Made by a program: the position numbers and the translations under genes. The notes beneath the pieces are model-generated. The model searched no databases. It had not been told where the DNA came from and worked only from the letters and a program-made list of their open reading frames with translations. From a virus, in the IMG/VR virus record IMGVR_UViG_3300021083_000086, positions 1 through 28,039 of that record: a stretch of DNA of 28,039 nucleotides, one strand, 5' to 3'. Positions 1-26,248 of the stretch are shown here, in pieces (position 1 is the first letter of the stretch; every line of letters starts with the position of its first letter).

Positions 1-926
1 CCAGCCTTCGGCGTGAAGGCGTTGAAAGGATCGTAGACCGTCTCGGTGTAGCCGGAGCCACCACCACGTGAGCGGGTAGCGTCGTTCCAGTCATCGTTGT
101 AGTCGCTGATGCCCCAGCCGTCAGCGGTGTACGCACTCGACTCGTTGAGTAGGTCGTCCATCGGACGGAAGTCGATCTTGTTCTTCGGGAGACCGTCGAG
201 GTAGTCGTGGAGCTTCTGAGCCTGCTCACGTGAGAAGGGGTAGCCGAACACGTCGACCTCATCGGAGGCGGTCTTCGAGGCGGCTAGACTGAAGCTGCCC
301 TGGTTGGGGTCGACGCCGACACCTTCCTCCCAGGTGTGCTTGCCACCCTTCGGGCACGTCGGGCTGTCGAACTGCTCCTTCGAGCCTCGGGTCAGCGTCT
401 CCTGGCACTTGCCACAGTGGTAGTGCGAGGCTGCGGTCTTGGCTGTCTTGATGGGGCGCTGACCGCTGCTAGCAGATCCGGCCCAGCACCGAGAGTTGCA
501 CGAGGGGCAACGTCCGATCGTGTTGCCACCACCCGGCTCAGGGTTCAGCGGTCCCGTGTCCTTGCAGTTCGGGTTGTCACAGCTATACTTGGCTGTCTTC
601 GAGGCGGTGCGGCCCCACTCGTTGCCCTCCTGCACGATGGCGGGAGCGGGCTTGGTGAGGATGTCGGCTAGCTCAGGGTAGTCACGGTCAGCGAGGTGAA
701 GCTCGGACCCCTCGGTCTGCCACTTGCCCTCGGTCTGTGCGCCAACGTGCTGCCAGGTGATCTCGTCCGGGGCGTAGAGACCTTGGACGTGTCCGGCGAA
801 CTGAAGGCGGGCCTGTCCGTCCTCATGAGCGATGACCTCGCCCACCTCACCGCTACGGGTGGTAGCGAGGGTCCCGAAGGCGGGAAGCTCTGCATCAAGG
901 CGTCGGTAGCTAGTCTGTCGTCTCAT
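1..926 (-). CDS. Zinc-ribbon protein with TASKTA linkers (3' end outside window)
   Basis: I read at least 308 residues from the ATG at 926; the frame stays open to the window edge. An in-frame ATG lies at 944 and another at 950, but AAGGA sits five bases before the ATG at 926, so I prefer that start. It overlaps the portal stop by 17 bases. Residues 15-58 look like a small SH3-like beta barrel (GEVGEVIAHEDG, LQFAG, LYAPDEI). Cys-pair modules follow at C116/C121/C140/C143 and C171/C174/C191. Peptides RTASKTAK (106-113), KTAKTAAS (160-167) and AASKTAS (215-221) sit at the module boundaries. The same linker type recurs in the other large proteins of this block. The part from about residue 225 is acidic and Gly-rich and unrecognised. 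The function is unknown; the position just after the portal suggests a head-associated role, which is inference. Confidence 0.75.
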   Translation of the reverse strand, partial: MRRQTSYRRLDAELPAFGTLATTRSGEVGEVIAHEDGQARLQFAGHVQGLYAPDEITWQHVGAQTEGKWQTEGSELHLADRDYPELADILTKPAPAIVQEGNEWGRTASKTAKYSCDNPNCKDTGPLNPEPGGGNTIGRCPSCNSRCWAGSASSGQRPIKTAKTAASHYHCGKCQETLTRGSKEQFDSPTCPKGGKHTWEEGVGVDPNQGSFSLAASKTASDEVDVFGYPFSREQAQKLHDYLDGLPKNKIDFRPMDDLLNESSAYTADGWGISDYNDDWNDATRSRGGGSGYTETVYDPFNAFTPKA

Positions 927-3843
927 TACGTTCCTTAGTTGCATTTTCATGGGGCCAGACAGGCGCACGTAGCTGATCTGCCAGGGGTTGAGTTCGGTCG
1001 AGGGTGCGGAACTTGCGGGCGCCGACGTGGCGAGGACCCGTCGAGAGGCTAGAACCCTTGGGCATCTTGCCTCGCTGCTCGTCGCTCTCGGGCGGTCGAG
1101 AAGCGTGCTGGTTGCGGGGAAGAGGGATAGTGCTGCCGCTAGCGTCATCAGTCTGATCGTCATCACCCGGAGGCATCTTGCCCGAGAGGGAGTCACCACC
1201 GAAGGAGTTGGGGTCCTCACCCTCATCGGCCTCTGCGTCCTCGGCTGCGGCGATGTCCTCGTCGGTCGGGGCCAGAGCGTCGGTCGGGGCAGGCTCGTCC
1301 AGTCCGAGGGCCGGGAGCACCTGCGGACCTTCCGGCTGACCGGCAGCATCGACGGGACCCTGAGTCTGAGCGACCGGCTGGAAGTCTTCCTTGAGGTCGT
1401 CGGGGATCGGCAGACCAGCGGCGAGGAGGGCAAGGTAGGTCTCCTTGCGGGTCTCCTGTGCGGCGACAGCAAGCTCGATCTGCTCTTCCTTGACCTTCTC
1501 GACTTCCTCGTCCAGATCGATGTCGACGTTGACCAGTCGGGTCTTCATCGAGATCGGCACACCAGAGGCACGGACGGTTTCCATGAACTGCTGGTTGCTG
1601 TCCTCGTCGGCCAGGCTCATGGTCTTGAAGGTGAGGTCGGGGATGAGGAGCTTCGGTCGCTCCACGATGCGCTCTTCGCCGGTCTCCTCGTTGACTTCGA
1701 GGATCTCTTCCATGATCGGGTACTTGATGCCGTTGCGCTCTTCGTAGTCGTAGTGCTCCTGGGCCTCGGCCACGACCATGGCCCGGCTCTTCCAGAAGCG
1801 CTGGATCTTACGCTGGTAGGTCGAGAGCAACTGCGTCACGATGTCTCGGTTGAGGGCGTCGGCGGCGTAGGTCTCACCGGAGCCAGCGCCGTTGAGCATC
1901 GTGCGGGACAGACCGAACACCTGAAGCTGACGGTCGGTGAGGCGGTCGAAGTCCGGGCTGAAGTCCGGCATGGCCTCCTTGCCGAACACCTGCGAGATGT
2001 CGAGGGCGAAGTGGTGGATCAGGACTCGGAAGTCGCCAGCGAGGGCGGCGTCGAGCGATGCCTCGAACGCTTCGAGGTCGCCCTGGTTCGGGACCCACGG
2101 CTGCGTGGTACCGAGGTCGGATGCGGAGGCACCGAGCTTGGCCACGATCATCGGGGTGTAGAGGCGCTCAGCGATGGCATCCTGGGCGGCGTTGAGCATC
2201 TCTTCCTGAATGACGGCACGGAAGCCACGCATCAGGATCGGGATGCCTCGGGGGTGGAAGCTGTCGGCCTTGAACTTCAACTGCTTGAGGAGGACGCCGG
2301 AGACATCCATCTTCGACTCCTCACGGCTGAAGTGAGCAAGCTCGGGGTACACCCTCATGAGGGCTTCGTACTCCCACTTCGGCTCACGCTCCAAGATGAT
2401 CTTGCGGATCGTCTCGGGGAGCTTCATCTTGAAGCGAGGCTCCTTGAGGAACGGTGAGCGAATGACCTCAACGTCGTCCGGGTTGATGAGTTCGTCGGAC
2501 TCCCACACGCCGAGCGTGTCGTTGAAGGTGCCGAGCGGCCATGCCTCGCCCACGGTCCAATACTCTCGACCCACGTCGAGTAGGAACTCCTCGTAGTCAA
2601 GCTGGTCGAAGAAGAGGTCGCCGTAGAAGTCGTTGAGTTCGTCGTCCTTGCCGGTCATCTCCATCCCGATGAGCGGGTACTTCGAGAAGATGTCGATGGC
2701 CGAGGCGATGACGGGGTGTGTGATGTAGAGCAGACGGCAGTTCTTGGAAGCAATACCCCAAGCGGTGTAGTTACCAGTTCCCGTCTGTATCGAAACTACT
2801 TCGCCGGAGCCTTCTGATTCGATACTGACGATCTTCTCTCGTCCACCATTCGGTGTAGCCAGCAACCTCTTGTCAATCGCCGCAGTCACCCGCCTTGTCG
2901 GATTGGTCCAGTTCAAGAAGTCCACTAGGTCTTGTGCGGCCCCTTGACGACGACCAGGCACCCGCAACCAAAATGACTCGGGAGTCTGCGTATATGGAAT
3001 CCCCAGGAAGTCCAGTGAGTCAGCGATCCGTTGACATACCCCAGGATTATGACTCTGGCTTTGAGCAATCCCTTCTCCACATCCCTCACCGTCATAAACG
3101 CCCCCCAGCCATGCGGCCACTATCAACTCCTTTTCGGAACTCAACTCGGGAGTGGGGGTAACCATCCGAACAAGTTCTCGTCCAACCTCAGCCGTCCGAT
3201 ATTCCGGCTGCTTCCAGCCGGTAGTTTGGTTAGGGGAGTAATGTGGATTGGCCCATAGGTGGTCCGGTGTGCAATGGATAACCTCACCAGACTCGAAGGT
3301 CACCTTGACAATCTCGGGGGCGATCCGACGTTGAATAGCTAGAACGGGGGTGCGGACAAGTACCTTACGTACCTCGCCCTGTGGTCCCGTGCGATACTCC
3401 CAGCCGATGACCTCATCCCCTTCAACAATCTGACCCATCGGCTTGAACGAGTAATCAGCCATCCACACCGGGGCATCTGGTGTATTGCAGAACGCACGGA
3501 TCTTCTCTAGCTCCTCGTCCTTCGCTACGTCGTAGGGGAGGTTGTTCTGGCGCCAGTAGAAGAGCGGGTCACGAGGGCGTGCGGTAGCGAACGAGAACTG
3601 GCCTACTCCACCCATGCCCTGTCCGCTGTTGACGCCACCAGAGGCGTTCTTGGTGATGCGGCGGTTGGCTCGCATCTCAGCGACGACATCCGACGTATCG
3701 ACAGCGCCCTGCTTGCCCTTGGCGAGAGCAGTCTTCGCTAGGGCGTGGTAGTCCTGATGTCCGGTGGCGTCAGCGAGGGCGCCGAAGACATCGGCGTCGG
3801 CCTGCACCTGGCGGGAGCCTGAGGGCGTCCACAGTTCCGGCAT
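910..3843 (-). CDS. Portal protein containing an intein
   Basis: This 977-residue ORF encodes a portal interrupted by a 250-residue intein at residues 119-368. The ligated product would be about 727 residues, long for a portal. The portal forms the dodecameric ring at one capsid vertex through which DNA is packaged and ejected. The assignment rests on the post-intein extein (ITHPVIASAIDIFSKYPLIG, then a long helical region with TYAADALNRDIVTQLLSTYQ typical of the portal stem and crown) and on its position downstream of the terminase. The C-terminal 130 residues are acidic and low-complexity. They carry SFGGDSLSGKMP (880-891), which is also found in the gene just upstream. The ATG at 3843 follows the previous stop by three bases. 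The portal call is moderate to good because I could not run a profile search; the intein call is strong. Confidence 0.75.
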   Translation of the reverse strand: MPELWTPSGSRQVQADADVFGALADATGHQDYHALAKTALAKGKQGAVDTSDVVAEMRANRRITKNASGGVNSGQGMGGVGQFSFATARPRDPLFYWRQNNLPYDVAKDEELEKIRAFCNTPDAPVWMADYSFKPMGQIVEGDEVIGWEYRTGPQGEVRKVLVRTPVLAIQRRIAPEIVKVTFESGEVIHCTPDHLWANPHYSPNQTTGWKQPEYRTAEVGRELVRMVTPTPELSSEKELIVAAWLGGVYDGEGCGEGIAQSQSHNPGVCQRIADSLDFLGIPYTQTPESFWLRVPGRRQGAAQDLVDFLNWTNPTRRVTAAIDKRLLATPNGGREKIVSIESEGSGEVVSIQTGTGNYTAWGIASKNCRLLYITHPVIASAIDIFSKYPLIGMEMTGKDDELNDFYGDLFFDQLDYEEFLLDVGREYWTVGEAWPLGTFNDTLGVWESDELINPDDVEVIRSPFLKEPRFKMKLPETIRKIILEREPKWEYEALMRVYPELAHFSREESKMDVSGVLLKQLKFKADSFHPRGIPILMRGFRAVIQEEMLNAAQDAIAERLYTPMIVAKLGASASDLGTTQPWVPNQGDLEAFEASLDAALAGDFRVLIHHFALDISQVFGKEAMPDFSPDFDRLTDRQLQVFGLSRTMLNGAGSGETYAADALNRDIVTQLLSTYQRKIQRFWKSRAMVVAEAQEHYDYEERNGIKYPIMEEILEVNEETGEERIVERPKLLIPDLTFKTMSLADEDSNQQFMETVRASGVPISMKTRLVNVDIDLDEEVEKVKEEQIELAVAAQETRKETYLALLAAGLPIPDDLKEDFQPVAQTQGPVDAAGQPEGPQVLPALGLDEPAPTDALAPTDEDIAAAEDAEADEGEDPNSFGGDSLSGKMPPGDDDQTDDASGSTIPLPRNQHASRPPESDEQRGKMPKGSSLSTGPRHVGARKFRTLDRTQPLADQLRAPVWPHENATKERNETTD
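2740..3489 (-). mobile_element. Intein with LAGLIDADG endonuclease in the portal gene
   Basis: The element is 250 residues, from C119 to N368 of the ORF, followed by the +1 extein residue C369. The N-terminal splicing block is CNTPDAPVWMADYSFKPMG followed by GDEVIGW. Block B is HCTPDHLWA (TxxH). A single LAGLIDADG-type motif reads WLGGVYDGEG near intein residues 127-136. The C-terminal block ends ...YTAWGIASKN|C. The penultimate residue is Lys where most inteins have His. The flanking exteins join as IRAFC/RLLYITHP. The DNA looks more AT-rich than the surrounding portal sequence, which fits acquisition from elsewhere. Confidence 0.88.
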
Positions 3844-11845: not shown

Positions 11846-11846
11846 T

Positions 11847-13400
11847 CTAGTATCCGAGGGGCGGGTCGCCCCAACCTCTTCCGAGAGGATTCTCTTGACC
11901 GTTCCACGGGTCATCGAGTTGGTCATGGGGAGTGTCCTGCGGGTAGTCGGGGTTGTCTTCCGGGTACTGCCCACAGAGCGGGCATGATCCTCGACCAGGA
12001 GTCCAGTTGCACGGACCTCCGGTCTCGCAATCCCAGGCAGCGTACATGCGAGCGGCCTCTGCGAGGTTGCGGGGTACACGCTCCAAGTCCTGACCGGCTA
12101 GCGGGTTCGGGTCTTGGATCTCGGACGACGGAGCCATGCCAGTGTCGACCTGATCTCCGAGGCCCTTCGGCTGCTTCTCGTAGCCGAGTTCGTCCTCATC
12201 CTCAGCGAAGTGGCGGAGGCTGCTCAGTCGACGGACGGTAGCGTAGCGCTCTTCGAGCAAGCTGGTGGCCTGTGCACGATCGGTGTGACTGTTGTCACCC
12301 TTCGGCTTGCCGCACGTCATGCAGCTACTCTCGTCGCCCCAGTTCTTGTCCTCAACGAACTTGTGGCGACGGGCAGCTTCCCAGCGCTGCGGAACATCCC
12401 ACTCTTCTTCGTCATCGTCGTCGTAGATCTCGTCCTCGCTGTGCGGGTCGATGTACTCCGGGTCCTCAGGGAACTCGTGGAAGTCGAGACCGACCTCGGG
12501 GTTGTGCTGGTCGGGTCCCCATGCTAGGGCTTCGAGGGAGGCCTTGTGGTTGCGGGGCTTCGGCTTGTCGGTGCGGCGCCACTCGATCGGCTGGCCATTC
12601 GAGCGCTTCTCCTTGCACTGCCAGCAGAGGCTACCGTGCGTCGGGGCGCCGAAGAGTCCGCAGCCACGGCAGTACGCCTGGTCCTCTGCGGTGTGGCGGA
12701 GGCTAGCAAGGCGCTGGCCATCGATGTAGCGCTCCTGCATCGAACCAGCGGTAGTGGCCTGTGCACGGTCGGTGTGAGATACATCACCCTTCGGCTGCCC
12801 ACACCTAACGCAGCTAGACTCATCGCCCCATCTTGGGTCTTCTACGAACTTATGTGCACGATTGGCTGCGGGTTGGGGCTGACCGTAAGATGATGCGGTG
12901 TGTTGCTCGCCTGCCCATGGGTCCTCATCGTCATCCCAGTCCCGATCCTGCTTAGAACCGTTGACGGTGTTCGAGCCAACCGGGAAGGTCTTGGCCTTGA
13001 GGGAGTCCCACTCGGCGCTGTTGCCGGGGCCGATGAACATGACGGCGGCGCCACGCTGCTCGATCATGTTCGGGGCTGCATCGCTGCGGGTGGCGTAGGG
13101 GCCGGAGATCGGGACACCGTTGCGGGAGACGACGTAGTAGCCGACCTCCTTGGCGGTCAAGGTCAGGGCGGCGGTGCGGCTATGCATTTCCTCGGCAGAG
13201 TAGCCATCATGCGGCTCTGCGTAGTGAGAGTCGTCACCCAGGATGGAAGGCTCTGGCCCCCATTGCTGGTTCGTTTCCTTGTGGTGGTATGTGAATCCTA
13301 GACCACCATTATCCTTGTCTCGTACAATCGGCTGGTGGCAGTGAACGCACTTGCGAGGAGTGGCAGTCTTCGTAGAGACTATTTCGAAGCCGGAGATCAT
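11847..13400 (-). CDS. Modular Cys-rich protein with a duplicated HKF-WGDESSC-CG-PKG module
   Basis: I start at the ATG at 13400, preceded by AAGGA at ten bases, giving 517 residues. An ATG at 13502 would run through the promoter and start of the plus-strand GIY-YIG gene. Residues 1-25 hold STKTATPRKCVHC. Residues 85-125 look folded (VGYYVVSRNGVPISGPYATR). A duplicated module (182-240 and 345-401) contains HKFVED, WGDESSC, CG[QK]PKG and SHTDRAQAT, a CxxC...H zinc-type motif followed by a helix. C244/C247/C259/C262 form a zinc ribbon between the copies. Acidic linkers (315-335) separate them. C457/C464/C473/C476 form a last Cys cluster. The architecture matches the other modular proteins of this block; the function is unknown. 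Confidence 0.78.
   Translation of the reverse strand: MISGFEIVSTKTATPRKCVHCHQPIVRDKDNGGLGFTYHHKETNQQWGPEPSILGDDSHYAEPHDGYSAEEMHSRTAALTLTAKEVGYYVVSRNGVPISGPYATRSDAAPNMIEQRGAAVMFIGPGNSAEWDSLKAKTFPVGSNTVNGSKQDRDWDDDEDPWAGEQHTASSYGQPQPAANRAHKFVEDPRWGDESSCVRCGQPKGDVSHTDRAQATTAGSMQERYIDGQRLASLRHTAEDQAYCRGCGLFGAPTHGSLCWQCKEKRSNGQPIEWRRTDKPKPRNHKASLEALAWGPDQHNPEVGLDFHEFPEDPEYIDPHSEDEIYDDDDEEEWDVPQRWEAARRHKFVEDKNWGDESSCMTCGKPKGDNSHTDRAQATSLLEERYATVRRLSSLRHFAEDEDELGYEKQPKGLGDQVDTGMAPSSEIQDPNPLAGQDLERVPRNLAEAARMYAAWDCETGGPCNWTPGRGSCPLCGQYPEDNPDYPQDTPHDQLDDPWNGQENPLGRGWGDPPLGY
12198..12368 (-). repeat. Second copy of intragenic module duplication
   Basis: This encodes residues 345-401 (HKFVEDKNWGDESSC, CGKPKGDNSHTDRAQAT, RRLSSLRHFAED). 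It pairs with 12681-12857. The two copies share most residues and long DNA stretches, separated by about 310 bases carrying a zinc ribbon and an acidic linker. Confidence 0.85.
12681..12857 (-). repeat. First copy of intragenic module duplication
   Basis: This encodes residues 182-240 (HKFVEDPRWGDESSC, CGQPKGDVSHTDRAQAT, QRLASLRHTAED). It is the partner of the copy at 12198-12368. Confidence 0.85.
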
Positions 13401-13475
13401 AGTGAGCAAGTCCTTTGCGGGCGGTACCTCATCATCACCCCTTAGTTGGGACACTGGCGGGGTATGACAGGGCGA

Positions 13476-13484
13476 TGGTATAAT
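13476..13484 (+). promoter_or_regulatory. Extended -10 promoter for the GIY-YIG gene
   Basis: TG, one base, then a perfect TATAAT at 13479-13484 form an extended -10 element. No good -35 sits 16-18 bases upstream, which extended -10 promoters can tolerate. The expected transcription start, seven bases past the hexamer, coincides with the A of the ATG at 13491. The mRNA would therefore be leaderless, a common arrangement in actinobacteria. Confidence 0.7.
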
Positions 13485-13490
13485 CTCTGT

Positions 13491-13985
13491 ATGTACGTGC
13501 ACTACGAGATCTACCTCCTCACAGCACCGGGGTACTGGTATGTCGGGTCAACCACGATTGGTGCTCGTAATCGGTTCAAGCTGCACGCTTCAGGTCAAGG
13601 TCATGCTCCGATTCTCAAAGCCAAGATCCAAGAACTTGGGTGGGAGGCATTCTCATCCACTATCCTAGAACAGGATAACGGAGACCCCATCGAGGCTGAG
13701 CAGCGCTGGTATGACTGGTATCTCGCCAACGACTCTCGCCAGACCCTCAACGGAAAGCGTCCGGGGAGTTGGGGATCTGGCATGAAGGGCAAGACTCATA
13801 GTCCTGAGGCTAGAGCGAAGGTAAGCAAAGCTCAACAGCAGATTCCTCATGTAGGTCGGCCTCATACTGCTGAAGCCAAAGCCAAGATGAGTACGGCTCG
13901 GAAGGGTCAGGTTCCTTGGAACAAGGGAAGACCCCACACTGCTGCCACGAGAGCCAAGATTAGTGCATCTAAGAAGAGGCGTTGA
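13491..13985 (+). CDS. GIY-YIG homing endonuclease with NUMOD3-type repeats
   Basis: This 164-residue protein is the only plus-strand gene here. The GIY-YIG core is at the N-terminus: EIYLL (6-10) and YWYVGS (15-20) stand for the GIY and YIG strands, with R26/R28 and the expected catalytic Glu at E70 (EAEQRWYDWYL). N87 follows. The tail has three NUMOD3-like DNA-binding units (residues 97-116, 122-138 and 146-161), each with G[KR][TP]H[ST] and A[KR]AK[VMI]S. I use the ATG at 13491 because a -10 box lies six bases before it, and the domain begins at once. Its end overlaps a convergent minus-strand gene by 17 bases. It has probably inserted into the minus-strand operon as a mobile gene with its own promoter. 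Confidence 0.92.
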   Translation: MYVHYEIYLLTAPGYWYVGSTTIGARNRFKLHASGQGHAPILKAKIQELGWEAFSSTILEQDNGDPIEAEQRWYDWYLANDSRQTLNGKRPGSWGSGMKGKTHSPEARAKVSKAQQQIPHVGRPHTAEAKAKMSTARKGQVPWNKGRPHTAATRAKISASKKRR

Positions 13986-14948: not shown

Positions 14949-15289
14949 AGTCTCGGCAGCTTTCGTATGACGTGAAGCGTCACGGGATCGGTAAACTCCG
15001 TCGTCGGTCCGAAGTAGTTGTGAACTACAGCTACGTCCTTCGGCTTCACCGTCTCCCAACGGAGAGGGCCATACGTCTCTTCGACCATTCCCTGAGCCTC
15101 CTCAAGAGTCGGTCGAGTAGCGATGAGGGTTCCATAAGTCCATACCTCAAAACTGTTTCCTCTCCCGCCACGGCCCTGCTCGGTCGTGGCGATGCACGCA
15201 TCGTACTCGTTCCAGAAGTCAGAGGCACTCAGCCCACGCCATGATCCAGCGGTGCGGACCGAGTGCCACTTCTCCGTGAGCCAACTCAT
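14945..15289 (-). CDS. Hypothetical protein
   Basis: This 114-residue protein is unrecognised. It is rich in aromatic residues (WLTEKWHSV, SDFWNEYDACIATTE, SFEVWTYGTLIATRPTLEEAQGMV). The middle looks like a small alpha/beta unit: a strand, a turn, then the helix TLEEAQGMVEETYG. It has one Cys and no signal or membrane segment. It overlaps the LAGLIDADG gene by four bases (ATGA) and the phosphoesterase by four (TTGA), so it is translated as part of a tight cluster. Confidence 0.65.
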   Translation of the reverse strand: MSWLTEKWHSVRTAGSWRGLSASDFWNEYDACIATTEQGRGGRGNSFEVWTYGTLIATRPTLEEAQGMVEETYGPLRWETVKPKDVAVVHNYFGPTTEFTDPVTLHVIRKLPRL

Positions 15290-15741
15290 GCAGCCTCCCG
15301 AAGATTCTTGTGGCGTAGTGTGTTACTTGCTGTGCACAGATCACACTTGCACTTATGGACTTCGTATCCTTGCCGAGTACCGTGACGCCACTGCGGTCGA
15401 CCTGTCGCCGCATAGGCATCGTAGATCTCGTGAAGCTTGGCAGTACGGCGTTCTCCCATCCACGGTTCGAGAGCTTTACACAAGGCAAACACGTCATCCC
15501 GCTTGTTGACCTGCCAAGTCCAGACAGGCGACCACTTCGGGTTACCAGGAATGAATGGCCCAGTCACCCTCCCGAGACCCGTAATGTGATGGGCACGACT
15601 GACAACATCCTCATCGCACATTTTCAAAGTGATGCGGAAAGTTGGGTACGGCTCGCCAGTCGTTGAGGTCTTCATGAAGATGCCGAAACATCCTTCACCC
15701 TCAAGTAGCCCCGCAAGCCACGCCAGATCAGTCGATTCCAT
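15286..15741 (-). CDS. LAGLIDADG homing endonuclease (single motif)
   Basis: This is a 151-residue free-standing endonuclease. WLAGLLEGEGCFG at residues 8-20 is a LAGLIDADG motif with the catalytic acid at the GEG end. With only one motif it should act as a homodimer. The C-terminus has basic and Cys residues (HKCKCDLCTASNTLRHKN), possibly an added metal-binding tail. I use the ATG at 15741 because AAGGAGG stands three bases before it; the longer frame to 15810 has no such site. It overlaps the upstream gene by 14 bases. It is likely a mobile gene inserted between DUF4406/DUF6378 and its original neighbour. Confidence 0.85.
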   Translation of the reverse strand: MESTDLAWLAGLLEGEGCFGIFMKTSTTGEPYPTFRITLKMCDEDVVSRAHHITGLGRVTGPFIPGNPKWSPVWTWQVNKRDDVFALCKALEPWMGERRTAKLHEIYDAYAATGRPQWRHGTRQGYEVHKCKCDLCTASNTLRHKNLREAA

Positions 15742-16498
15742 GATCCTCCTTGTACTGCTGAACTCGATCCACACATCCAGAGTAGCCTGCCATGTCCACG
15801 ATGTTGTCACGCTTCGGTCTATTCACTTGCCTACTGATCTTGACGGCTACCATACAGAGACCGACAAGTTCAGGAGCAACAGGATCAGTGCCGAGGATGG
15901 CTCCCCACATTTTCCCCGTGCGAGAGAAGTCAGTATAAGGGTGACCGTACATGTCCTGGCGGGGGCCGAAGATGAGGCCATCGGCCTCTTCGAGCACCGA
16001 GCGGGTCTCCGGCTGAGGGACGGGGGCGCCGACGAGCGGAGGGATGACCGGCTCCTCTGCGACCACGTGACCTTCGAGACGGCCACGACCGTCGTACTGA
16101 GCGACCCACACCTCGACGCCGCAGACGTTCGCCACGAAGAGTTCGTTGTTGGCGCCTGCGCTGGCCTCCCACCCCTTGAGGAGGAAGATGGCGTGGGCGT
16201 TGGCCACGATCTCCAAGTCACGCCTCATGCACAACTGGAAGACGTTCTCCGGCACGTCGTTCACGTCGGGGAGGTCTAGCTGCTCCTCCCGATCCACGTC
16301 GGCGGGGGAGATGCAGTTGAACTTCTCCAACCCGACAACGTAGTCCCGAGCCTCATCGAAGGCGGGGAAGTTGAAGTCATCGATCCCCCGCATCGGTCCG
16401 GCCACGTAGACAATGGGGTCCTGGTGCGGGCGAACGAGTCGCTTGGTGATCGGAGTGACGATGCACTCCATGGTGTCTCTCTCGGTTGTCCTCGACAT
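15728..16498 (-). CDS. DUF4406-DUF6378 fusion, nucleoside deoxyribosyltransferase-like
   Basis: This is a 256-residue, two-domain protein. Residues 27-130 match the DUF4406 pattern (IVYVAGPMRGIDDFNFPAF, then a Cys/Pro-containing turn, CMRRDLEIVANAHAIFLLKGW and AGANNELFVA). That family belongs to the nucleoside 2-deoxyribosyltransferase-like fold, which handles nucleosides or their phosphates. Residues 165-256 (EADGLIFGPRQDMYGHPYTDF...VGLCMVAVKISRQ...KRDNIVDMAGYSGCV) match the phage domain DUF6378. The ATG at 16498 follows AAGGAG. A role in nucleotide metabolism or modified-base handling is inferred; the enzyme activity is unproven. Family names are from memory. Confidence 0.8.
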   Translation of the reverse strand: MSRTTERDTMECIVTPITKRLVRPHQDPIVYVAGPMRGIDDFNFPAFDEARDYVVGLEKFNCISPADVDREEQLDLPDVNDVPENVFQLCMRRDLEIVANAHAIFLLKGWEASAGANNELFVANVCGVEVWVAQYDGRGRLEGHVVAEEPVIPPLVGAPVPQPETRSVLEEADGLIFGPRQDMYGHPYTDFSRTGKMWGAILGTDPVAPELVGLCMVAVKISRQVNRPKRDNIVDMAGYSGCVDRVQQYKEDHGID

Positions 16499-16507
16499 GT
16501 CCTCTCC

Positions 16508-17320
16508 TTACAGGTTGACGTGCTCGGTCTTGGTCTTGAATGCCTGACGCACTCGGCTGTATCCACCGCAGGCGTTGCAGCGAACCTGCGTGTACACCAT
16601 GACGGCGGTCTGACGGTGGCCTCGCACGACGAGACCCTTCTCGGTGTCGCCGCAGATCGGGCAAGCGCCCGGCTCGTCGGTCATCGTCGCCATGTTCGGC
16701 AGACGGTTGCTCCACGGGCGGAGCTTGTAGAAGAGTTCACGCAGCAGCACCACGTCCTGCTTGTTGTACTTCTTCATCTTGGCCCACGCCTTCGGGTCCT
16801 GATCGACCTCGATGTCATACCAGAGGTCGATGCCGCCCGTGTTGACCTTCTTGCCGATACCGAGGTACAGACACAGGTCATTCAGCCGGTTGGCCGTGAA
16901 GGCGAACTGCTGGCGGGCGAGACGCAGCGTGTCGATCTCCACGATCGGAGATGACGGCGTGAAGCCGTGGAAGATGAAGCGGGCCTTGATCTTCTTCGTG
17001 TCGAAGGCTACGCCGTTGTGAGCCACAACGATGTCGGCCTGCTCGAAGAGTTCGTAGGCAGCAGCAACGAGTGCGAAGTCATCGTGCTGGTCGGAGTCGT
17101 ACAACTCGTAGTCCGGCAGAGCTAGCACCTGCACGGGTCCGTCGTCCCATGCGTAGGCGAAGGTCAGGAGATGCCACGGCTCCTCGACCCACAGGATGTT
17201 CTGCTCGTAGGCGCCCCATGTACGAGCGAGAACCGGAGAGGTCTCGATGTCCCAGTAGAGCACACGGGCCTTGCGCTTCTTGCGATCTTCGGTGATGTAC
17301 TTGCTCTTCTTGCTAGCCAT
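16508..17320 (-). CDS. DnaQ-like 3'-5' exonuclease with C-terminal zinc ribbon
   Basis: This is a 270-residue RNase H-fold exonuclease. The DEDD motifs are DIE (D24, E26), HNGVAFD (N102, D107) and YNKQD (Y185, D189); the Tyr in the last motif places it in the DEDDy group. A zinc ribbon follows at C220/C223/C248/C251 (CPICG...CNACGGYSR), unusual for a bare proofreading domain and probably for nucleic-acid contact. I start at the ATG at 17320, eight bases after GGAGG. A TTG at 17335 lies on the ribosome binding site itself. It begins 45 bases after the pup stop and probably shares a transcript with it. The role could be DNA turnover, repair or proofreading. Confidence 0.88.
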   Translation of the reverse strand: MASKKSKYITEDRKKRKARVLYWDIETSPVLARTWGAYEQNILWVEEPWHLLTFAYAWDDGPVQVLALPDYELYDSDQHDDFALVAAAYELFEQADIVVAHNGVAFDTKKIKARFIFHGFTPSSPIVEIDTLRLARQQFAFTANRLNDLCLYLGIGKKVNTGGIDLWYDIEVDQDPKAWAKMKKYNKQDVVLLRELFYKLRPWSNRLPNMATMTDEPGACPICGDTEKGLVVRGHRQTAVMVYTQVRCNACGGYSRVRQAFKTKTEHVNL

Positions 17321-17365
17321 GTGTCTTCCCTCCAAGGGTTCTGTTGATGGCCGGATACTGCGTTG

Positions 17366-17566
17366 TCATTCCCCGCCTTTTTGGATGTAGTTGGCGACGA
17401 ACTCTTGAGCGTTCTCTTCGAGCACGCCCTCGATCTCATCTAGCAGGTCATCAAGATCCTGCTTCAGCTTGTCGCTATCGACCTTCTCTGCATCGGCAGT
17501 GGGAGTCGCAGCCTCCTCGACGGCTGTCTCCTGCTGAGGCTTCTGTTTGCGCACTTGTCCCGGCAT
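17366..17566 (-). CDS. pup: Prokaryotic ubiquitin-like protein Pup
   Basis: This 66-residue protein is recognisable as Pup, the tag joined to lysines of target proteins by the ligase PafA and recognised by the Mpa/ARC ATPase of the actinobacterial proteasome. The C-terminal half carries the family signature: DDLLDEI (39-45), VLEENA (48-53), then EFVANYIQKGGE (55-66). The first 28 residues are polar and disordered, as in host Pups, where this end is threaded into the ATPase. It ends in Gly-Gly-Glu, so no deamidation of a terminal Gln by Dop would be needed. It has no Cys and is of normal length. The ATG at 17566 lies six bases after AGGAG, inside the 3' end of the DUF6899-like gene in another frame. 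No PafA, Dop or proteasome gene is visible in the window. Confidence 0.93.
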   Translation of the reverse strand: MPGQVRKQKPQQETAVEEAATPTADAEKVDSDKLKQDLDDLLDEIEGVLEENAQEFVANYIQKGGE

Positions 17567-17891
17567 CGGTGGCTCCTGTCTGAGGTGTACTCTCATTAGG
17601 TGCCAATAGAGCGCCGTTGGCAGCGTAGAAGGCATCGAAGATGGGACCGTACACGTCGCCATTGGCGGCGATCTTGCGGTCCTCGTAGGGGACGGCGACA
17701 CGTCGGTAGAACTCGACACGAGCACCAGTGAGCGCACCGACCACATCGTTGATGGTCTGGTAGCTCAGGCCGTTGGCCACCACGTACTCGATACACGCCG
17801 TGGTGAGTTGGAAGTTGAGTTCGCCAGAGGTCTCAGCTACCACGCACAGGGGGTCGAGGTCGGGTCTGCGGTCCTGCTCGATGTAGGGCAT
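17475..17891 (-). CDS. DUF6899-like protein
   Basis: This is a 138-residue protein. The first 85 residues (MPYIEQDRRPDLDP, GELNFQLT, YQTINDVVGALTGARVEFYR, VPYEDRKIAANGDVY) match a small phage/bacterial family I know as DUF6899, of unknown function. The family normally ends near the NGDVY motif. Here about 55 Ser/Thr/Ala-rich residues follow, and the last 92 bases overlap pup in a different frame. The tail may simply be the by-product of a gene inserted behind it. The start abuts the nucleotidyltransferase stop (TAG then ATG). It is often carried by phages; its job is not known. Confidence 0.82.
   Translation of the reverse strand: MPYIEQDRRPDLDPLCVVAETSGELNFQLTTACIEYVVANGLSYQTINDVVGALTGARVEFYRRVAVPYEDRKIAANGDVYGPIFDAFYAANGALLAPNESTPQTGATDAGTSAQTEASAGDSRRGGCDSHCRCREGR
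17573..17577 (-). promoter_or_regulatory. Ribosome binding site of pup
   Basis: AGGAG on the minus strand stands six bases before the ATG at 17566. It decides the pup start over an in-frame ATG at 17596, and shows that pup is translated by itself from inside the preceding coding region. Confidence 0.8.
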
Positions 17892-18713
17892 CTACTCTCC
17901 AAGTCGTTGTGCGATGCGGTCTTCGATCCCGGCGAAACCACTGCCAGGGATGCCCACCTGGCGCCGAACGATACGAAGTGCTTCCTTGAGGTTCTCGATC
18001 TGTTCCTGCGCTTCGACCGGGAAGGGGAGAAGCTTCAAACGGGTCTCCACGAGGAACTGCTCTACCCTATCATACTCCGGCTCCGGGGGCAACACTGACT
18101 TGGTTTTCCTGAAGTGTGCGTCCCTGCGGTCGAAGATGTCGAGCACATCCTCGAAGGGGAGCCGACCGAGAGCGAACAACTCCTCGGGGTCATCGACTCG
18201 TACCTGTAGCTCGCCGGTCTCGATGAGGTGCTGTCCCTCCTGTAGCAAACGGAACATGTGCCGGACGTACTTCTCGCCACGGTCGTTCGTCTTCTGCGTG
18301 CGCCTCATGCGCTCTAGCTGCTGACGGGCGTAGCCGCCGAAGGAGTCCCGCACACGCTCGGACAGGAAGGCCTCTCGCATCCCGAGGAGGGTGGTGCCCG
18401 TCTCGTTCTGCGTGACGTACTGGTCGAGCCAGAGGAGTTCGAGGATCGTCGGGTTGCCTTGCAGCGCCAGCTTGACGAACTTGCCTAGCTCCTGGTACGT
18501 GTAGTCGGGCAAGCCGGGGTGGTCGAGATGGGTGTTCGTCACCGTCTCGTGCGGCTTGCCCAGTCCCAGGAGGGTGGCGGTATCTAGCTGGAAGACACCT
18601 AGGTAGTCCTCGTCCGAGCCAGCGTGGTCGAGACCGTAGGCCTTCGAGCCGACGAGACCCACGAGCACGAGGTCGTAGTAGCCGTTGATGTCTTCGACGG
18701 TGTGTGGGGGCAT
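17892..18713 (-). CDS. Nucleotidyltransferase, COG3541-like
   Basis: This is a 273-residue protein with a pol-beta-superfamily nucleotidyltransferase N-terminus: GLVGSKAYGLDHAGSDEDYLGV. G22-S23 bind the triphosphate and D34/D36 would bind the metal ion. The rest is helical and rich in charged residues (ERMRRTQKTNDRGEKYVRHMFRLLQEG), as in COG3541-type proteins commonly found in phages. Such enzymes transfer nucleotides to RNA, protein or small molecules; this one's substrate is unknown. TGATG couples it to the AAA+ gene upstream. It is not related to the Pup ligase PafA, which has a glutamine-synthetase-like fold. Confidence 0.85.
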   Translation of the reverse strand: MPPHTVEDINGYYDLVLVGLVGSKAYGLDHAGSDEDYLGVFQLDTATLLGLGKPHETVTNTHLDHPGLPDYTYQELGKFVKLALQGNPTILELLWLDQYVTQNETGTTLLGMREAFLSERVRDSFGGYARQQLERMRRTQKTNDRGEKYVRHMFRLLQEGQHLIETGELQVRVDDPEELFALGRLPFEDVLDIFDRRDAHFRKTKSVLPPEPEYDRVEQFLVETRLKLLPFPVEAQEQIENLKEALRIVRRQVGIPGSGFAGIEDRIAQRLGE

Positions 18714-19942
18714 CAGAGGTATCCTGTCGGCTCAAACTGTTCGATGCCGTCACCGATCATCGTGTCGTTCTTCTTCTCGTAGAGTTCAGCGAGGGTCAGG
18801 TCTTCCGCCACCGGGACGCCGAGCCACTTGGCCGCTTCCTCCTTCGAGAGGGAGGGGACCTCGATGTTGGCGAAGGTGCGGCCAGCCCGCTTGATGGCGG
18901 GGTGCACGTCGGCCATCTTCGTGTTGGTCGTCAAGAGGATCAGGATGTTGAGGCCCTGCCCGATGAAGCCGTCTCCCACGTTGAGCAGACGGCTGAGCGC
19001 CTGCCCCACATGAGCCTTGGCGTCGGGGTTCATGAACTCCTCTGCGTCCTCGATGATGAGCAGGCGCCACGACGGAGTGCCGTCCGTCTTCGGCGGGGAA
19101 GAGACATACCTAGGTAGTGAGAAGGACCGACCGGTCGCCTCGTGTGCGGTCTTCAGCAGAGCCTCGATGGCATCGTCGTCCTCGTCGTCCTCGTCGTAGG
19201 GGTCGATAGAGTCGGCGGTCGACATGAGGCACTCGGTCATGTACATGGCGTTGCCGAAGAAGGACTCGGGGTCCACGATGTAGTCGATGTTGCACCACTT
19301 CTTCCACTCCCGACAGAGCGCACGGATGGCCGTAGTCTTGCCGGTGCCAGGAGGCCCGTGGAGGATGGCCAGGCGCCCGCCCGTGATGTCCTCGGGCCTG
19401 ATGGTCACGAGGGCGTCGAGGCTGTCCACGACCTTCGGAGAGTAGTTGCCACGGATCTCGTCCCACGTCGGGGCGTCGAGGTGGCGCACGTTGTAGTCCG
19501 GGCGGGTGCCACCCCAGTGCCAGAACTTGACCTTGACCGTCTCCTCCTCCGCCTTGATCGGCTTGACGGTGGTGAGGATGATCTTCTGGATGTCAGCGAC
19601 CGTCTCCTTGTCGCCGGAGATGATGCGGAGCCAGATGCGCTTGGTGCCCGACAAGCTCTGCCGGTAGGCGATGTACGTCGGCGGGACGATCTTGGCGGTG
19701 GTGTGCGACTTCGGGGTCTTGTACTCGAAGAGCGCCGATGAGAACTTCGAGTTGAGGTCGTGGTACTCAGCGATGGTCACCAGGTCGTAGGTGAACTCGA
19801 TCTCACCGAAGGGGGTCATCGTCTCGACGGAGAAGCTGACGACGTGCGGGTTCGGAAAGTCCCATACGTGTTCCCACGCACGGTCGAAGATGAAGTCCTG
19901 CCCATCCTCATAGCGTGTGCGGTACTGCACTTCAGCGGTCAC
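18713..19942 (-). CDS. DUF5925-type AAA+ ATPase
   Basis: This is a 409-residue protein with a GTG start at 19942 that overlaps the upstream stop (GTGA), after GGGAG at five bases. The N-terminal 165 residues have mixed alpha/beta character. The AAA+ core has Walker A GPPGTGKT (196-203), Walker B LLIIEDAEE (294-302), sensor-1 LTTNT (337-341) and candidate Arg fingers in AIKRAGR (349-355). KKWCNIDYIVDPESFFG after Walker A resembles the DUF5925 ATPases of actinobacteria, from memory. An acidic loop (249-257) lies in the middle. I see no Mpa-like N-terminal coiled coil or C-terminal proteasome-docking tail, so it is not simply Mpa/ARC. Its operon includes pup, so a link to protein unfolding is possible but unproven. 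Confidence 0.88.
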   Translation of the reverse strand: MTAEVQYRTRYEDGQDFIFDRAWEHVWDFPNPHVVSFSVETMTPFGEIEFTYDLVTIAEYHDLNSKFSSALFEYKTPKSHTTAKIVPPTYIAYRQSLSGTKRIWLRIISGDKETVADIQKIILTTVKPIKAEEETVKVKFWHWGGTRPDYNVRHLDAPTWDEIRGNYSPKVVDSLDALVTIRPEDITGGRLAILHGPPGTGKTTAIRALCREWKKWCNIDYIVDPESFFGNAMYMTECLMSTADSIDPYDEDDEDDDAIEALLKTAHEATGRSFSLPRYVSSPPKTDGTPSWRLLIIEDAEEFMNPDAKAHVGQALSRLLNVGDGFIGQGLNILILLTTNTKMADVHPAIKRAGRTFANIEVPSLSKEEAAKWLGVPVAEDLTLAELYEKKNDTMIGDGIEQFEPTGYL

Positions 19943-20247
19943 TCAAGCTCCCAGTCCTCGATCTCTCTCACCGGCTTCGCCTTGGTCGTCTTCTTCTGCG
20001 GAGCTTGCGGTGGGCCATACGGTTGGCCCGCCAGATCATAGCAGTCTTCGTGGTATCTGTCCAGCCGGTCCCACCTACGTCCCACGCCAAAACATCGCTT
20101 GCAGACGGGGATGATACAACAATCCTCATAGACGTTACAGACTACCCACGTCTCGTCAGTATCAGAGGTCATCGAGACCGTGCAACGCACACAGTCATCC
20201 ATCTCTTCATCAGTGATCTTGATGATGACCGCTCTTGAGTCGTTCAT
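19939..20247 (-). CDS. Small Cys-rich hypothetical protein
   Basis: This is a 102-residue protein with eight Cys: C19/C22, C37, C43/C44, C49/C52 and C69. CVRC and CKRC pairs with a CC between them suggest zinc binding. The Lys/Pro-rich tail (QAPQKKTTKAKPVREIED) looks disordered. It is coupled to the HNH gene by ATGA and to the ATPase by GTGA. I do not recognise the family. Confidence 0.72.
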   Translation of the reverse strand: MNDSRAVIIKITDEEMDDCVRCTVSMTSDTDETWVVCNVYEDCCIIPVCKRCFGVGRRWDRLDRYHEDCYDLAGQPYGPPQAPQKKTTKAKPVREIEDWELE

Positions 20248-20738
20248 ACTCGATCACCCTTCACCAAGTTGCACCGCAGATGGGAGGCCTGCGCATTGTC
20301 TCGGGTGTGGTTGCCACCCTTGCTGATGGGTGTGATGTGGTCGAGAGATGCTGCAAGGGGATCTGGCCATCTAAGGAACGGATCGATCGGCTCAAAGCAG
20401 AGTTGGCAGATGTAGTCGTCCCTCTCGAAGATCTCGGTGTCGAGGAACTTCTCCACGATGCCACCGTGTAAAGCTGCACGACGCCGATGGTTATCTTCCC
20501 GACTTGCGTCAGGGTGCTTCCTCTTCCACGCATTACTACGTGTCCTATCTCGCACGGGGTTACTAGCGTACCTCGCTCGTCGGGCTGCGTTGATGACTTC
20601 ACGATGCTCTTCACGATGTTGAGCCTCGGCTGTCCTGACGCACGTCTTGCAGTCGTATCTCAACCCGTCTTGGGAACGTGGGTTCTTGTAGAACTCATCG
20701 ACTGACAAGCTGTTGCCGCATACCGAGCACGTCTTCAT
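20244..20738 (-). CDS. HNH homing endonuclease
   Basis: This is a 164-residue protein. An N-terminal zinc motif C4/C7/C30/C33 is followed by a basic helical linker (HREVINAARRARYA...NAWKRKHPD). The HNH core comprises C111/C114 and DHITPISKGGNHTRDNAQ (D133, H134, N148), ending in H153/C156 and N157. The start at 20738 follows AGGG at eight bases and lies 25 bases after terL, a favoured site for free-standing HNH genes. It overlaps the next gene as ATGA. Its terminase-side position suggests a mobile gene that targets an allele of this region. Confidence 0.88.
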   Translation of the reverse strand: MKTCSVCGNSLSVDEFYKNPRSQDGLRYDCKTCVRTAEAQHREEHREVINAARRARYASNPVRDRTRSNAWKRKHPDASREDNHRRRAALHGGIVEKFLDTEIFERDDYICQLCFEPIDPFLRWPDPLAASLDHITPISKGGNHTRDNAQASHLRCNLVKGDRV

Positions 20739-20763: not shown

Positions 20764-23577
20764 TCAACGTCCACGCCTAAACGGAGAACTTGGCGACCAA
20801 GTTTGGCCGGACGGATTGCGGTTGATGGAGCGGCCCGTCATGCCCTGTGTCGACAGGCGCTCGCCCTGCATTCGGTTGAAGGCACCGAAGGCGTCGAAGA
20901 CATCGTTCCCGGTGTTCTCTCCGTCCATGGCGGGGAAGGGGCGCATACCACCCTGCATCGCACCAGTGATCGAGAAGCCGGAGAACTCGGCACCGAGGAA
21001 CGCAGACATCTGCTCACCGATGAGGTTGTAGACGACGTTCATCATGGCGTCGGCCACGTCCTTGCTCTGGACCGGGCCGGACGACGGGTGGTCGACTCGC
21101 TGGTTGCCCATGTCCTGAAGGAAGGTCAACTCTAGCTCGGCCTGCTCGTGCCACGGGCCGTGCAGGAGGTGCATGTTCAGCGCAGCCTTGAAGGCCTCCG
21201 CCATCTTCCAGTTGAGCGGCTTGGTAGCGGTCTGCTCTGCGATGTCGATTCGACGGGGCCACTTCTTCTCAGCCACGTACTTGCGCAAGTGCTGGATCAT
21301 CATCGGACCGCCGAACTGGTCGAAGGTCAGAAGGGTCGGCACGAAGGCGTCGAGCACTTCCTCCTTGAAATACTTCTCGATCTCGATGTAGTCGATCTGC
21401 AAGTCGTTCTCTACGAAGTCACCGGGACGCCAGAAGTGGAGCCGGTCGAAGATGACGTGCTTGAAGCCGTTCTCGTCCGGCTCGGTCGTGTGAGCGATGG
21501 CGAGGCCGAAGTTGTCGCCCACGTTGGAGGGGTCGCCGTGTGCGACGTACAGGGTGGTGAACCGACCACGCTGCTGTTGCTGTAGGCGCTCGCCCTCGTA
21601 CTCACCGAACATGTCTGCGATGCGGTTCGGGTTGAGGTAGGCGTTCATGGCGGCAGCCCAGCGAGAGTTGTGTGATATCAACCCTTCCGCTACGAAAGTA
21701 CCGGTAGACGTTTCGATATCAATCAACTCTTGCTCAGGCAACTGCTCAATAGTAGCAATCGTCTTGGCGCTAGACCTGCCATCGAGACGACCCATCGCAC
21801 GCCCCTCCCACATACCAGGGATGGCTTGACGACGTAGTTTATGAGCACCCAACTGCCCAACGAATCTGAGTACATTGGATAGTCCAGTGATGACGTGTAC
21901 TTCAGCCCTACGATCACCGGGAATGTGGGTCACATCAAACCCTAGCGCCTTAAGGTATTGGAGAGTGGCGTCCAATACCTCACCAGGGTTCTGAACGAAA
22001 CTGACCCTGAACTCCCTGCGAGGGTATCCTATAGCCGTTCCTTCTCCATCATAGACACCAGCAAGATATCCAGCCTCCCACGATCTATCTTCTTCCCACG
22101 GATCGGCCAAGAATCTAATAGTGTCTCCAGGCTTGATACTCCTTCGAGGTCCGGGGGTGTGGGGGTCGGCAATCAGCGACCTCCAATAGAAACTCGATGG
22201 ACTACTCATAGGAGCAGAGAGCCAACGATGGTTGCCCGAACACGTTACATGCGTTCCGTCAGTGAAGGTCACTCGATAAGCGATGTCTTGATTAGACCAC
22301 TTGTTTAGAACGGTTGCTGTCCGCATCTTGCGTTGCCGACGTTGCTCGGCGTACTCATCGAGAGCAATAATCTCATCACCCACCACGAGGTTTTTGATAG
22401 GGCGCCACACCAAGTCGGCACATAGAACACGGGTCTCGGGGTCTAGGCATCGACGCTCGACGGCGAAGGTCTCCGGGTTGGCCTGTTCGAGCTTCTGCAT
22501 GTTGGCGTCGTACTCCTGCATGGCCTTCTTCTTCTTCTTGAAGGGCATGGGGTTCTTACGACGCATTCGGATCTTGTGGGCCTTCTCCCAGTCCTTGTAC
22601 GGGTCCCAGGAGGATAGCTGCACCATGAACATCTCGGGGTAGGTCGGGATGTGTGAGTCCCGGTGGACCTCAAGTGAGTTCTGCCAGTTCTGGTAGAACT
22701 GCCCGGACATCTGCCACGGTGACGACCCCTCGAAGATGAAGCCGTACTCTCCGAACTGGTCGAGAGACGGAGTGGCCGACGAGTACACGGCCTCGGCTGA
22801 AGCGTTGGCGCCGGAGGAGGTGTCGACGTGGGCCATCTCATCGAAGTACAGCATGAACGATGCCGGGCCTCGACCAGCCATCAGGGTCGACTCCTTCGGG
22901 AAGATCTCGAAGGACGCCATGTCGATGTCGGACTTGATACCTCGGGACTCTCGCTCGGCTGCACGGATCATGTCGTGCTGCGAGTAGACAGTGAGCTTCT
23001 GCGCCTGCGGGCGGGAGATGAACTTGGAGAAGCACGGGGCACCGAGGATGACCTGAGTCAAGTCCTTCCACTGCTCGTCACGAGCCTGGCTCAGCTTACC
23101 GGCGAAGACGATGGCGGCGAGGCGCTTGTCTCGGTCGATGGCCCACTCCGCCTGAGGGTCCTCCGGGGACAGGAAGTGCCATAGCACATAGGCGCCCGCC
23201 AGTCCACCCAGGTAGCCCTTGCCGCCTCGTCGTCCGATGACGAGCACGTTCTCACGGAACCACTTGCGTCCCTCGGCCTTGTTCATCTTGATGCGCTCAA
23301 GGAGGTCGGGCTGGCAGCCCCACGTACCTTGGTACCTCATGTTGCCGTCCGAGCCGGGGTGCTCCGGCATCGAGAACCCCTCGGACCACTCACCGATCAC
23401 GTCGTAGTCGTACTGCGTGAAGAGTTCGTCCTGAAGGAACATGGCCTTGAGGATCGTGGCCTGACGTGGGTACAGGTCAGGTCGGTTGAGGTACTGCGGG
23501 TGGCATACGAATGTGATGATGTCGGGGATGTCTAGGGACTTCCCTAGACCAGCCTCGAACGGGCTGTATCCCTTCAT
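20764..23577 (-). CDS. terL: Terminase large subunit containing an intein
   Basis: This 937-residue ORF would leave a 676-residue terminase after splicing out residues 377-637. TerL is the ATP-driven DNA-packaging motor and headful or site-specific nuclease that docks on the portal. The ATPase half has the Walker A-like VLVIGRRGGKG (111-121) and Walker B FMLYFDEMAHVD (241-252). The nuclease half, after the intein, has VAHGDPSNVGDNFGLAIAHT, DRLHFWRP and TFDQFGGP, giving the acidic residues of an RNase H-like fold. The C-terminus is a long Gly/Met/Arg-rich tail. TGATG couples it to the gene upstream. Splicing would join AVERR to SRWAAAMN. Confidence 0.93.
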   Translation of the reverse strand: MKGYSPFEAGLGKSLDIPDIITFVCHPQYLNRPDLYPRQATILKAMFLQDELFTQYDYDVIGEWSEGFSMPEHPGSDGNMRYQGTWGCQPDLLERIKMNKAEGRKWFRENVLVIGRRGGKGYLGGLAGAYVLWHFLSPEDPQAEWAIDRDKRLAAIVFAGKLSQARDEQWKDLTQVILGAPCFSKFISRPQAQKLTVYSQHDMIRAAERESRGIKSDIDMASFEIFPKESTLMAGRGPASFMLYFDEMAHVDTSSGANASAEAVYSSATPSLDQFGEYGFIFEGSSPWQMSGQFYQNWQNSLEVHRDSHIPTYPEMFMVQLSSWDPYKDWEKAHKIRMRRKNPMPFKKKKKAMQEYDANMQKLEQANPETFAVERRCLDPETRVLCADLVWRPIKNLVVGDEIIALDEYAEQRRQRKMRTATVLNKWSNQDIAYRVTFTDGTHVTCSGNHRWLSAPMSSPSSFYWRSLIADPHTPGPRRSIKPGDTIRFLADPWEEDRSWEAGYLAGVYDGEGTAIGYPRREFRVSFVQNPGEVLDATLQYLKALGFDVTHIPGDRRAEVHVITGLSNVLRFVGQLGAHKLRRQAIPGMWEGRAMGRLDGRSSAKTIATIEQLPEQELIDIETSTGTFVAEGLISHNSRWAAAMNAYLNPNRIADMFGEYEGERLQQQQRGRFTTLYVAHGDPSNVGDNFGLAIAHTTEPDENGFKHVIFDRLHFWRPGDFVENDLQIDYIEIEKYFKEEVLDAFVPTLLTFDQFGGPMMIQHLRKYVAEKKWPRRIDIAEQTATKPLNWKMAEAFKAALNMHLLHGPWHEQAELELTFLQDMGNQRVDHPSSGPVQSKDVADAMMNVVYNLIGEQMSAFLGAEFSGFSITGAMQGGMRPFPAMDGENTGNDVFDAFGAFNRMQGERLSTQGMTGRSINRNPSGQTWSPSSPFRRGR
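21667..22449 (-). mobile_element. Intein with LAGLIDADG endonuclease in terL
   Basis: The element is 261 residues, C377 to N637, with S638 as the +1 residue. It begins CLDPETRVLCADLVW, followed by VVGDEIIAL. Block B is TCSGNHRW. A LAGLIDADG-type motif, YLAGVYDGEG, lies about half way. The C-terminal splice block FVAEGLISHN|S is canonical with His-Asn. The DNA is visibly poorer in GC than the flanking terL. Insertion lies between the ATPase and nuclease halves. Confidence 0.93.
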
Positions 23578-25928: not shown

Positions 25929-26248
25929 CAGGACTCCGGGTAGTAAGAGTTCTCCTCGACGTGAGAGGCCAGGCTCGAAGATCCTCGGTTGGCACGAGCG
26001 ATCCCGTCTCGGCTGTTCAGGTCAGGGCGGGCGGAGTTGGCGACTCGATGGAACATGCCACTACGCACTGATGCGTCGGGGAAGCCCACGGCAGTGTAGA
26101 CCTCACGGCGGTGACGGTCTGCATCCTTCCAGGGCGTCAATATATCCGACTTGGCAGAGTGAGAGAACACACCCTCCAAGGACTTCTTGATGAGAGCGTC
26201 GGCTGCCTCTTCGAGGGCGATGTGTCGCCCGAAGTGCATCCTGCTCAT
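25928..26248 (-). CDS. Short paralogue of the sigma-like protein's N-terminal domain
   Basis: This is a 106-residue protein. Residues 12-82 (LEEAADALIKKSLEGVFSH, KSDILTPWKDADRHRRE, ARPDLNSRDG) repeat the first 80 residues of the protein at 26633-27409. The sigma-like C-terminal part is absent. ATGA couples it to the HNH gene. It may be a stand-alone partner or competitor of the longer paralogue, or a remnant of a duplication. No known domain is assigned. Confidence 0.8.
   Translation of the reverse strand: MSRMHFGRHIALEEAADALIKKSLEGVFSHSAKSDILTPWKDADRHRREVYTAVGFPDASVRSGMFHRVANSARPDLNSRDGIARANRGSSSLASHVEENSYYPES

Follow-up and report, generated by a model that had tools for sequence, protein, structure and literature searches.

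The window, a 28,039-base IMG/VR record classed as linear, encodes on its minus strand a protein that its profile matches and C-terminus identify as a full-length Pup, the prokaryotic ubiquitin-like protein. At least 45 further virus sequences, falling into about 20 groups, have Pup but lack the enzymes of pupylation, which suggests that phages commandeer host protein disposal. We think it fairly probable that these phages supply a conjugation-competent Pup to the ligase PafA of the host and so replace, once the host is shut off, the one component of the pathway that is consumed and unstable. The family is known, and its setting is new. One phage Pup is already annotated in GenBank, so the protein cannot be called unprecedented; what appear to be new are the recurrence of Pup in phages, the lack of the enzymes and the existence of altered variants. 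No discussion of a phage-encoded Pup was found in the open-access papers searched, and phages are unmentioned in a 2025 minireview (PMC12288473) and a 2021 review (PMC8223512) of bacterial pupylation.

The pup gene and its phage genome

The pup gene and its signals have the following positions in the window.

17366..17566, minus strand: pup, encoding a 66-aa Pup, with ATG at 17566 and TGA at 17366-17368 (translation, PF05639, TIGR03687, PDB Pup chains)
17573..17577, minus strand: AGGAG ribosome-binding site, 6 nt 5' of the pup ATG (read from the sequence upstream of the ORF)
17369..17383, minus strand: C-terminal Gln-Lys-Gly-Gly-Glu of pup (sequence; role of GGE/GGQ per PMC3511204)
17381..17494, minus strand: predicted helix, residues 25-62, with the putative Mpa- and PafA-binding segment (AlphaFold2)

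The minus-strand translation of 17566-17366 is MPGQVRKQKPQQETAVEEAATPTADAEKVDSDKLKQDLDDLLDEIEGVLEENAQEFVANYIQKGGE* (66 aa), and a stop codon breaks the plus strand of this interval. A preliminary description had placed a 66-residue ORF here, with its strand unstated, and had claimed for it a ribosome-binding site of its own and a Pup-like end containing DDLLDEI, VLEENA and QKGG. The translation bears out the ORF and all three motifs, and the AGGAG ahead of the ATG agrees with the claimed site. The profile search that this description had proposed gave significant matches and supports a phage-encoded Pup: Pfam PF05639 matched residues 3-66 with 69.1 bits (E=6.4e-19; curated cut-off 27 bits) and NCBIfam TIGR03687 with 60.9 bits (E=8e-17; curated cut-off 41.45 bits), and membership of both profiles holds along the full length of the protein. 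Searched with phmmer against the PDB, the ORF matched the solved Pup chains 3m91, 3m9d and 7px9 (4e-10 to 1e-9). Pup is described as a small protein with a Gly-Gly-Glu or Gly-Gly-Gln end (PMC3511204); at 66 residues the window protein falls in the family's range of about 60-70, and its QKGGE terminus is the Glu form. No ubiquitin family was among the Pfam matches of the ORF, and its model is all-helical, not beta-grasp. A PHROGs search with the ORF as query gave no significant match; judged by this query, the collection does not represent phage Pups. The sibling contig L002, 99.7% identical in DNA over 7.1 kb, encodes a Pup 100% identical to that of the window, so the ORF is not a sequencing error.

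The AlphaFold2 model, built from an input alignment of 22 sequences, predicts a single helix over residues 25-62. Mean pLDDT is 88-94 over residues 31-60 and low before residue 30, and residues 1-24 have no secondary structure. The predicted helix resembles that of Pup bound to Mpa, described as a single longer helix (PMC8223512). Together with the core residues, the model points to the helix/coiled-coil pattern expected in a C-terminal half that binds Mpa and PafA. The window protein shares with cellular Pup (PF05639, TIGR03687) its length, GG[E/Q] end and acidic helical C-terminal half, and its N-terminal tail is probably flexible as well; it differs in being phage-encoded and away from any dop-pup-prcBA-pafA cluster. 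Its residues also depart from those of host Pups: E replaces D44 and Q replaces E52, position 45 is G, and position 56 is A in place of the host R or K.

The genes that place pup in a phage genome are as follows.

910..3843, minus strand: portal protein with an intein-like insert (phrog_2833, E=7.5e-149; about 39% identity to mycobacteriophage portals, e.g. Pio and BeanWater)
16508..17335, minus strand: DNA polymerase exonuclease subunit, downstream of pup (phrog_403, E=1.4e-75)
17475..17891, minus strand: DUF6899 ORF, upstream of pup (PF21840, E=2.9e-22 over residues 1-80)
17892..18713, minus strand: RlaP-type nucleotidyltransferase (PF10127, E=5.6e-19; phrog_388)
18713..19942, minus strand: AAA ATPase with a DUF5925 match (PF00004, E=3.5e-10; PF19347, E=6.9e-10; phrog_33861, E=1.3e-48)
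20764..23577, minus strand: terminase large subunit with an intein-like LAGLIDADG insert (tblastn to mycobacteriophage terminases; LAGLIDADG_3 at residues 500-577; weak PF03237)

The portal and terminase are closest to those of mycobacteriophages and mark the record as a phage. An INPHARED search with the terminase returned 243 records, nearly all of them phages of Mycobacterium, Gordonia, Streptomyces and Rhodococcus, and this likeness of portal and terminase makes an actinobacterial host likely. The cellular Pups closest to the window Pup belong to Actinomycetes and Acidimicrobiia MAGs (identity up to 61%). On the same strand, the RlaP, AAA and DUF6899 genes lie ahead of pup and the polymerase exonuclease gene follows it. 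The 5' end of pup shares 92 nt with the DUF6899 ORF, which is read in a different frame, and the codon-position GC pattern inside the overlap favours the pup frame. By its PF00004, PF19347 and phrog_33861 matches, the AAA ATPase is assigned to a phage protein family and not to Mpa.

Several other features of this genome were observed. The portal ORF exceeds its PHROG profile match by about 230 intein-like residues, and a related mycobacteriophage portal is annotated as intein-containing. Homing-endonuclease-like genes are numerous, with HNH genes at 11255-12079 and 20244-20738, a NUMOD3 protein at 13446-13985 (plus strand), a weak LAGLIDADG_1 match at 15286-15810 and an endonuclease VII at 27409-27912. 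L002 7166-7996 is alignable only in part with window positions ~11895-12954, a hypervariable stretch encoding a protein with repeated zinc-ribbon-like motifs, e.g. HKFVED.NWGDESSC..CG.PKGD.SHTDRAQAT. A DUF7236 domain occurs twice (25928-26248 and 26633-27409, minus strand), and one of the copies is joined to a sigma-70 region 4-like domain.

Recurrence of Pup in viruses without its enzymes

The preliminary description had asked whether pup recurs in other phages, and it does. Scans of IMG/VR found 45 further records with Pup besides the window; most Pup-bearing virus records are fragments. The Pfam Pup model, run on 12 of these further proteins, placed all 12 above its cut-off. The contigs sort into about 20 groups by our reading of the sequences and their neighbours. 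Two GenBank phage records also encode Pup. The cultured Streptomyces phage Dagobah, with the host S. coelicolor M600, has HUN42_00036 (QMP84414.1) annotated as 'ubiquitin-like protein Pup', and MT835496.1 (L134), a 159-kb phage record from human faeces, has an unannotated Pup ending VQKGGQ. Both were found in INPHARED only by the L033 and L040 queries; tblastn of INPHARED with the Pups of the window, L003 and L004 gave no convincing match. A PLSDB search gave one weak match only, on an 11.8-Mb Nonomuraea record, and an IMG/VR re-scan with a Dagobah-type alignment added no contigs. Dagobah is an actinophage whose pup, like that of the window, has no pathway enzymes listed nearby, but its Pup is unlike that of the window: it has 78 aa, ends VGGE with loss of Lys61, and includes an additional acidic helical stretch. 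The Dagobah genome is also of a different type. Neither the paper describing Dagobah nor its correction mentions Pup, ubiquitin or the proteasome.

The genes next to viral pup are those of phages. Terminases of three PHROG families (phrog_2, phrog_9 and phrog_38) were found beside it, as were portals, a major head protein, a head maturation protease, an SbcC/gp46-type subunit, DNA polymerase, primase, thymidylate synthase and endolysin. The gene lies shortly 5' of a terminase gene in L010-L013, L018-L021, L004 and the L028/L033/L049/L052 clade, and within the head module in L022. Another set of contigs (L035, L040-L045, L047 and L048) has gp46/gp47-like neighbours and Pups ending QRGGE. Host Pups with Arg in place of Lys61 come from MAGs titled NC10, Methylomirabilis, Deltaproteobacteria, Proteobacteria and Myxococcota, so the QRGGE phages may have non-actinobacterial hosts.

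The enzymes of pupylation were sought in the same records. All 46 Pup-bearing virus records, window included, lacked a match to PafA/Dop (PF03136) or to a proteasome subunit (PF00227). This agrees with the earlier statement that no ligase, depupylase or proteasome subunit lies near the window pup, and it supports the claim made there that host enzymes would be needed. IMG/VR was also scanned with alignments of Dop and PafA taken from host loci, and no relative was found; these scans used two short peptide patterns for each protein and were not exhaustive, and the same method readily found Pup. Host loci around pup show the order dop-pup-prcB-prcA-pafA, which has also been reported previously (PMC3511204), and the window record has no such cellular-type locus with pup beside dop, prcBA and pafA. 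Across the 46 records and the IMG/VR scans, phages carry the Pup tag only and not its enzymes.

Between close relatives in two phage clades dN/dS is 0.05-0.33 (pairs with computable dS), which is purifying selection on pup. Values of 0.36-0.74 in the diverged L010/L011/L013/L018/L020 set, where dS is high and the N-terminal alignment shaky, are not used as evidence. A Pup tree (112 rows, 67 columns) was poorly resolved; the best tree required 7 label changes for phage Pups, and a single phage Pup clade was not rejected (p-AU 0.23).

Could viral pup be host contamination, or a neutral host gene that is passively carried? Pups are short and strongly conserved, host sequence can occur in IMG/VR, and the records are largely fragmentary. 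Yet phage genes surround pup, the cultured phage Dagobah has it, and dN/dS is well under 1 in two clades. Moreover, host pup sits between dop and prcBA-pafA, so that contaminating DNA would carry these larger genes along, but none of the 46 records has them, nor did the IMG/VR scans turn up dop or pafA. This explanation is highly improbable, and host contamination as the source of viral pup was rejected on the phage neighbours, the Dagobah copy, the absent pathway genes and dN/dS.

Conserved and altered residues of phage Pups

The residues of 33 distinct phage Pups were compared with those of 79 host Pups (Mtb numbering). L47, N50, A51, Q60, G62 and G63 are invariant across both sets, E48 is invariant in phage Pups and present in 78 of the 79 host Pups, and positions 39, 40, 43, 46, 54, 55 and 58 show conservative changes only. 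The window Pup keeps the core positions 39, 40, 43, 46, 47, 50, 51, 54, 55 and 58. Several of the conserved positions are among those affected by Mpa in in-cell NMR (L39, I43, L47, A51, F54, V55 and G63; PMC3769308). The final residue is E or Q throughout, and all 33 phage Pups end GGE or GGQ; the split between these forms (15/18 in phages, 43/36 in hosts) does not separate the two sets. At least 29 residues precede the C-terminal 28 in phage Pups, so the flexible N-terminal tail appears to be retained.

Other positions have changed. Phage Pups are relaxed at 42, 45, 52, 53 and 56, of which 42, 52 and 56 are nearly fixed in hosts. Lys61 is missing in 10 of the 33 (replaced by R in six and by E, S, Q or V in one each), whereas hosts have K in 73/79 and R in 6/79. 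The loss of Lys61 and the relaxed positions 42, 52 and 56 could reflect an altered rather than an ordinary function. In three 78-aa Pups, of L135 (Dagobah; 11857-12093), L039 (2718-2951) and L036 (7989-8225), an additional acidic helical stretch precedes the usual one; it is less clear in the Pup of L023. In these long proteins the extra stretch is possibly a duplicated Mpa-binding segment.

These changes bear on an alternative in which phage Pup is ligated and its conjugates are then handled differently. For instance, Pup chains might not form where Lys61 is lost, Dop might be resisted, or virion proteins might be tagged for assembly or in a structural role. The substitutions of Lys61 fit such an altered tag, as does the position of pup beside terminase or in the head module in several lineages. 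There is also a viral precedent. The baculovirus AcMNPV encodes its host's protein-modification tag as v-ubi, which is highly expressed late and has been proposed to aid the incorporation of viral proteins into particles (PMC4584293). However, v-ubi is a ubiquitin, unrelated to Pup in sequence and fold and acting in a eukaryotic host, and the analogy is functional only. Against the alternative, the window Pup keeps Lys61 and looks ordinary, Arg at position 61 also occurs in hosts, and the position of a gene is not the timing of its expression. We regard a different conjugate fate as improbable for phage Pups.

Proposed supply of a consumable tag to host machinery

For the supply of a working tag, the proposed sequence of events is as follows. 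During infection, phage Pup would be ligated by host PafA to lysines of proteins, and host Mpa/ARC and the proteasome would degrade the proteins so tagged. The Glu-ended Pup is the form ligated by PafA, a Gln end being first deamidated by Dop (PMC3511204); the window Pup already ends GGE, so the Dop step would not be needed. Once host expression is shut off, free Pup would be exhausted while PafA, Mpa and the proteasome, as catalysts, would persist. That Pup is the consumed, unstable part of the pathway would be the reason why phages carry the tag without the enzymes; a phage that gains from ongoing pupylation would have to contribute nothing but Pup. Free Pup is unstable and seldom detected in M. 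tuberculosis (PMC5358908). The proteasome degrades Pup-GGE in both its free and its target-bound state, though slowly in vitro (PMC3769308), and during starvation the maintenance of Pup levels depends on depupylation (PMC12288473). A phage pup gene would thereby sustain or raise pupylation during infection, and it could steer pupylation to proteins whose loss favours the phage. Possible gains would be the removal of host regulators or defence proteins and a supply of amino acids. The account builds on what was observed, namely a full-length Pup among phage genes that recurs, also in a cultured Streptomyces phage, keeps its core residues and C-terminus, is under purifying selection in two clades and comes without the enzymes; we infer the conjugation, the consumable logic and the benefit to the phage. 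A comparable case is cyanophage psbA, a phage-encoded, fast-turnover part that keeps a host machine running after host shut-off. It differs from Pup in encoding a photosystem protein and not a protein tag, and we infer the shared logic.

The main rival to tag supply is a decoy or inhibitor. Phage Pup would then occupy PafA and Dop, or the coiled coils of Mpa, and phage proteins would be spared pupylation and proteasomal loss. Lysine deserts are abundant in mycobacteriophage proteins, and the authors of that study read the enrichment of lysine-poor proteins as avoidance of pupylation (PMC10665810). This hints that pupylation can harm phages and counts against the tag model. Many phage Pups are also substituted at the host-near-fixed positions 42, 52, 56 and 61, and the acidic helical addition to the Pups of Dagobah, L039 and L036 might tighten Mpa binding. 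On the other side, every phage Pup keeps a putatively ligatable GGE or GGQ end and, it appears, the Mpa-threading tail, although losing the end would be an easier route to a decoy, and the GGE form would be consumed by ligation. The preliminary description had offered three roles, the tagging of host proteins, the flooding of PafA and the blocking of Mpa. A protein that only blocked Mpa would need no ligatable end, so the kept ends favour tagging, with conjugation by host PafA, over a plain Mpa block. We consider a decoy unlikely, though clearly less so than an altered tag.

Beyond tag supply as such, a broader proposal seems to us evenly balanced. Phages of pupylating bacteria may repeatedly encode Pup alone to take over the host degradation system and redirect pupylation, as a bacterial counterpart of viral ubiquitin, and some lineages may have evolved altered tags, lacking Lys61 or bearing an added acidic helix, with effects on chain formation, Mpa binding or depupylation. 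A pattern in which phages bring the tag and leave out its enzymes suggests that the supply of Pup is limiting for the pathway in vivo, and the naturally altered phage Pups could help to separate binding to Mpa, PafA and Dop. Dagobah on S. coelicolor M600 is a cultured pair that makes the role of phage Pup in infection directly testable. If the proposal is true, pupylation would be a recurrent battleground between phages and their hosts.
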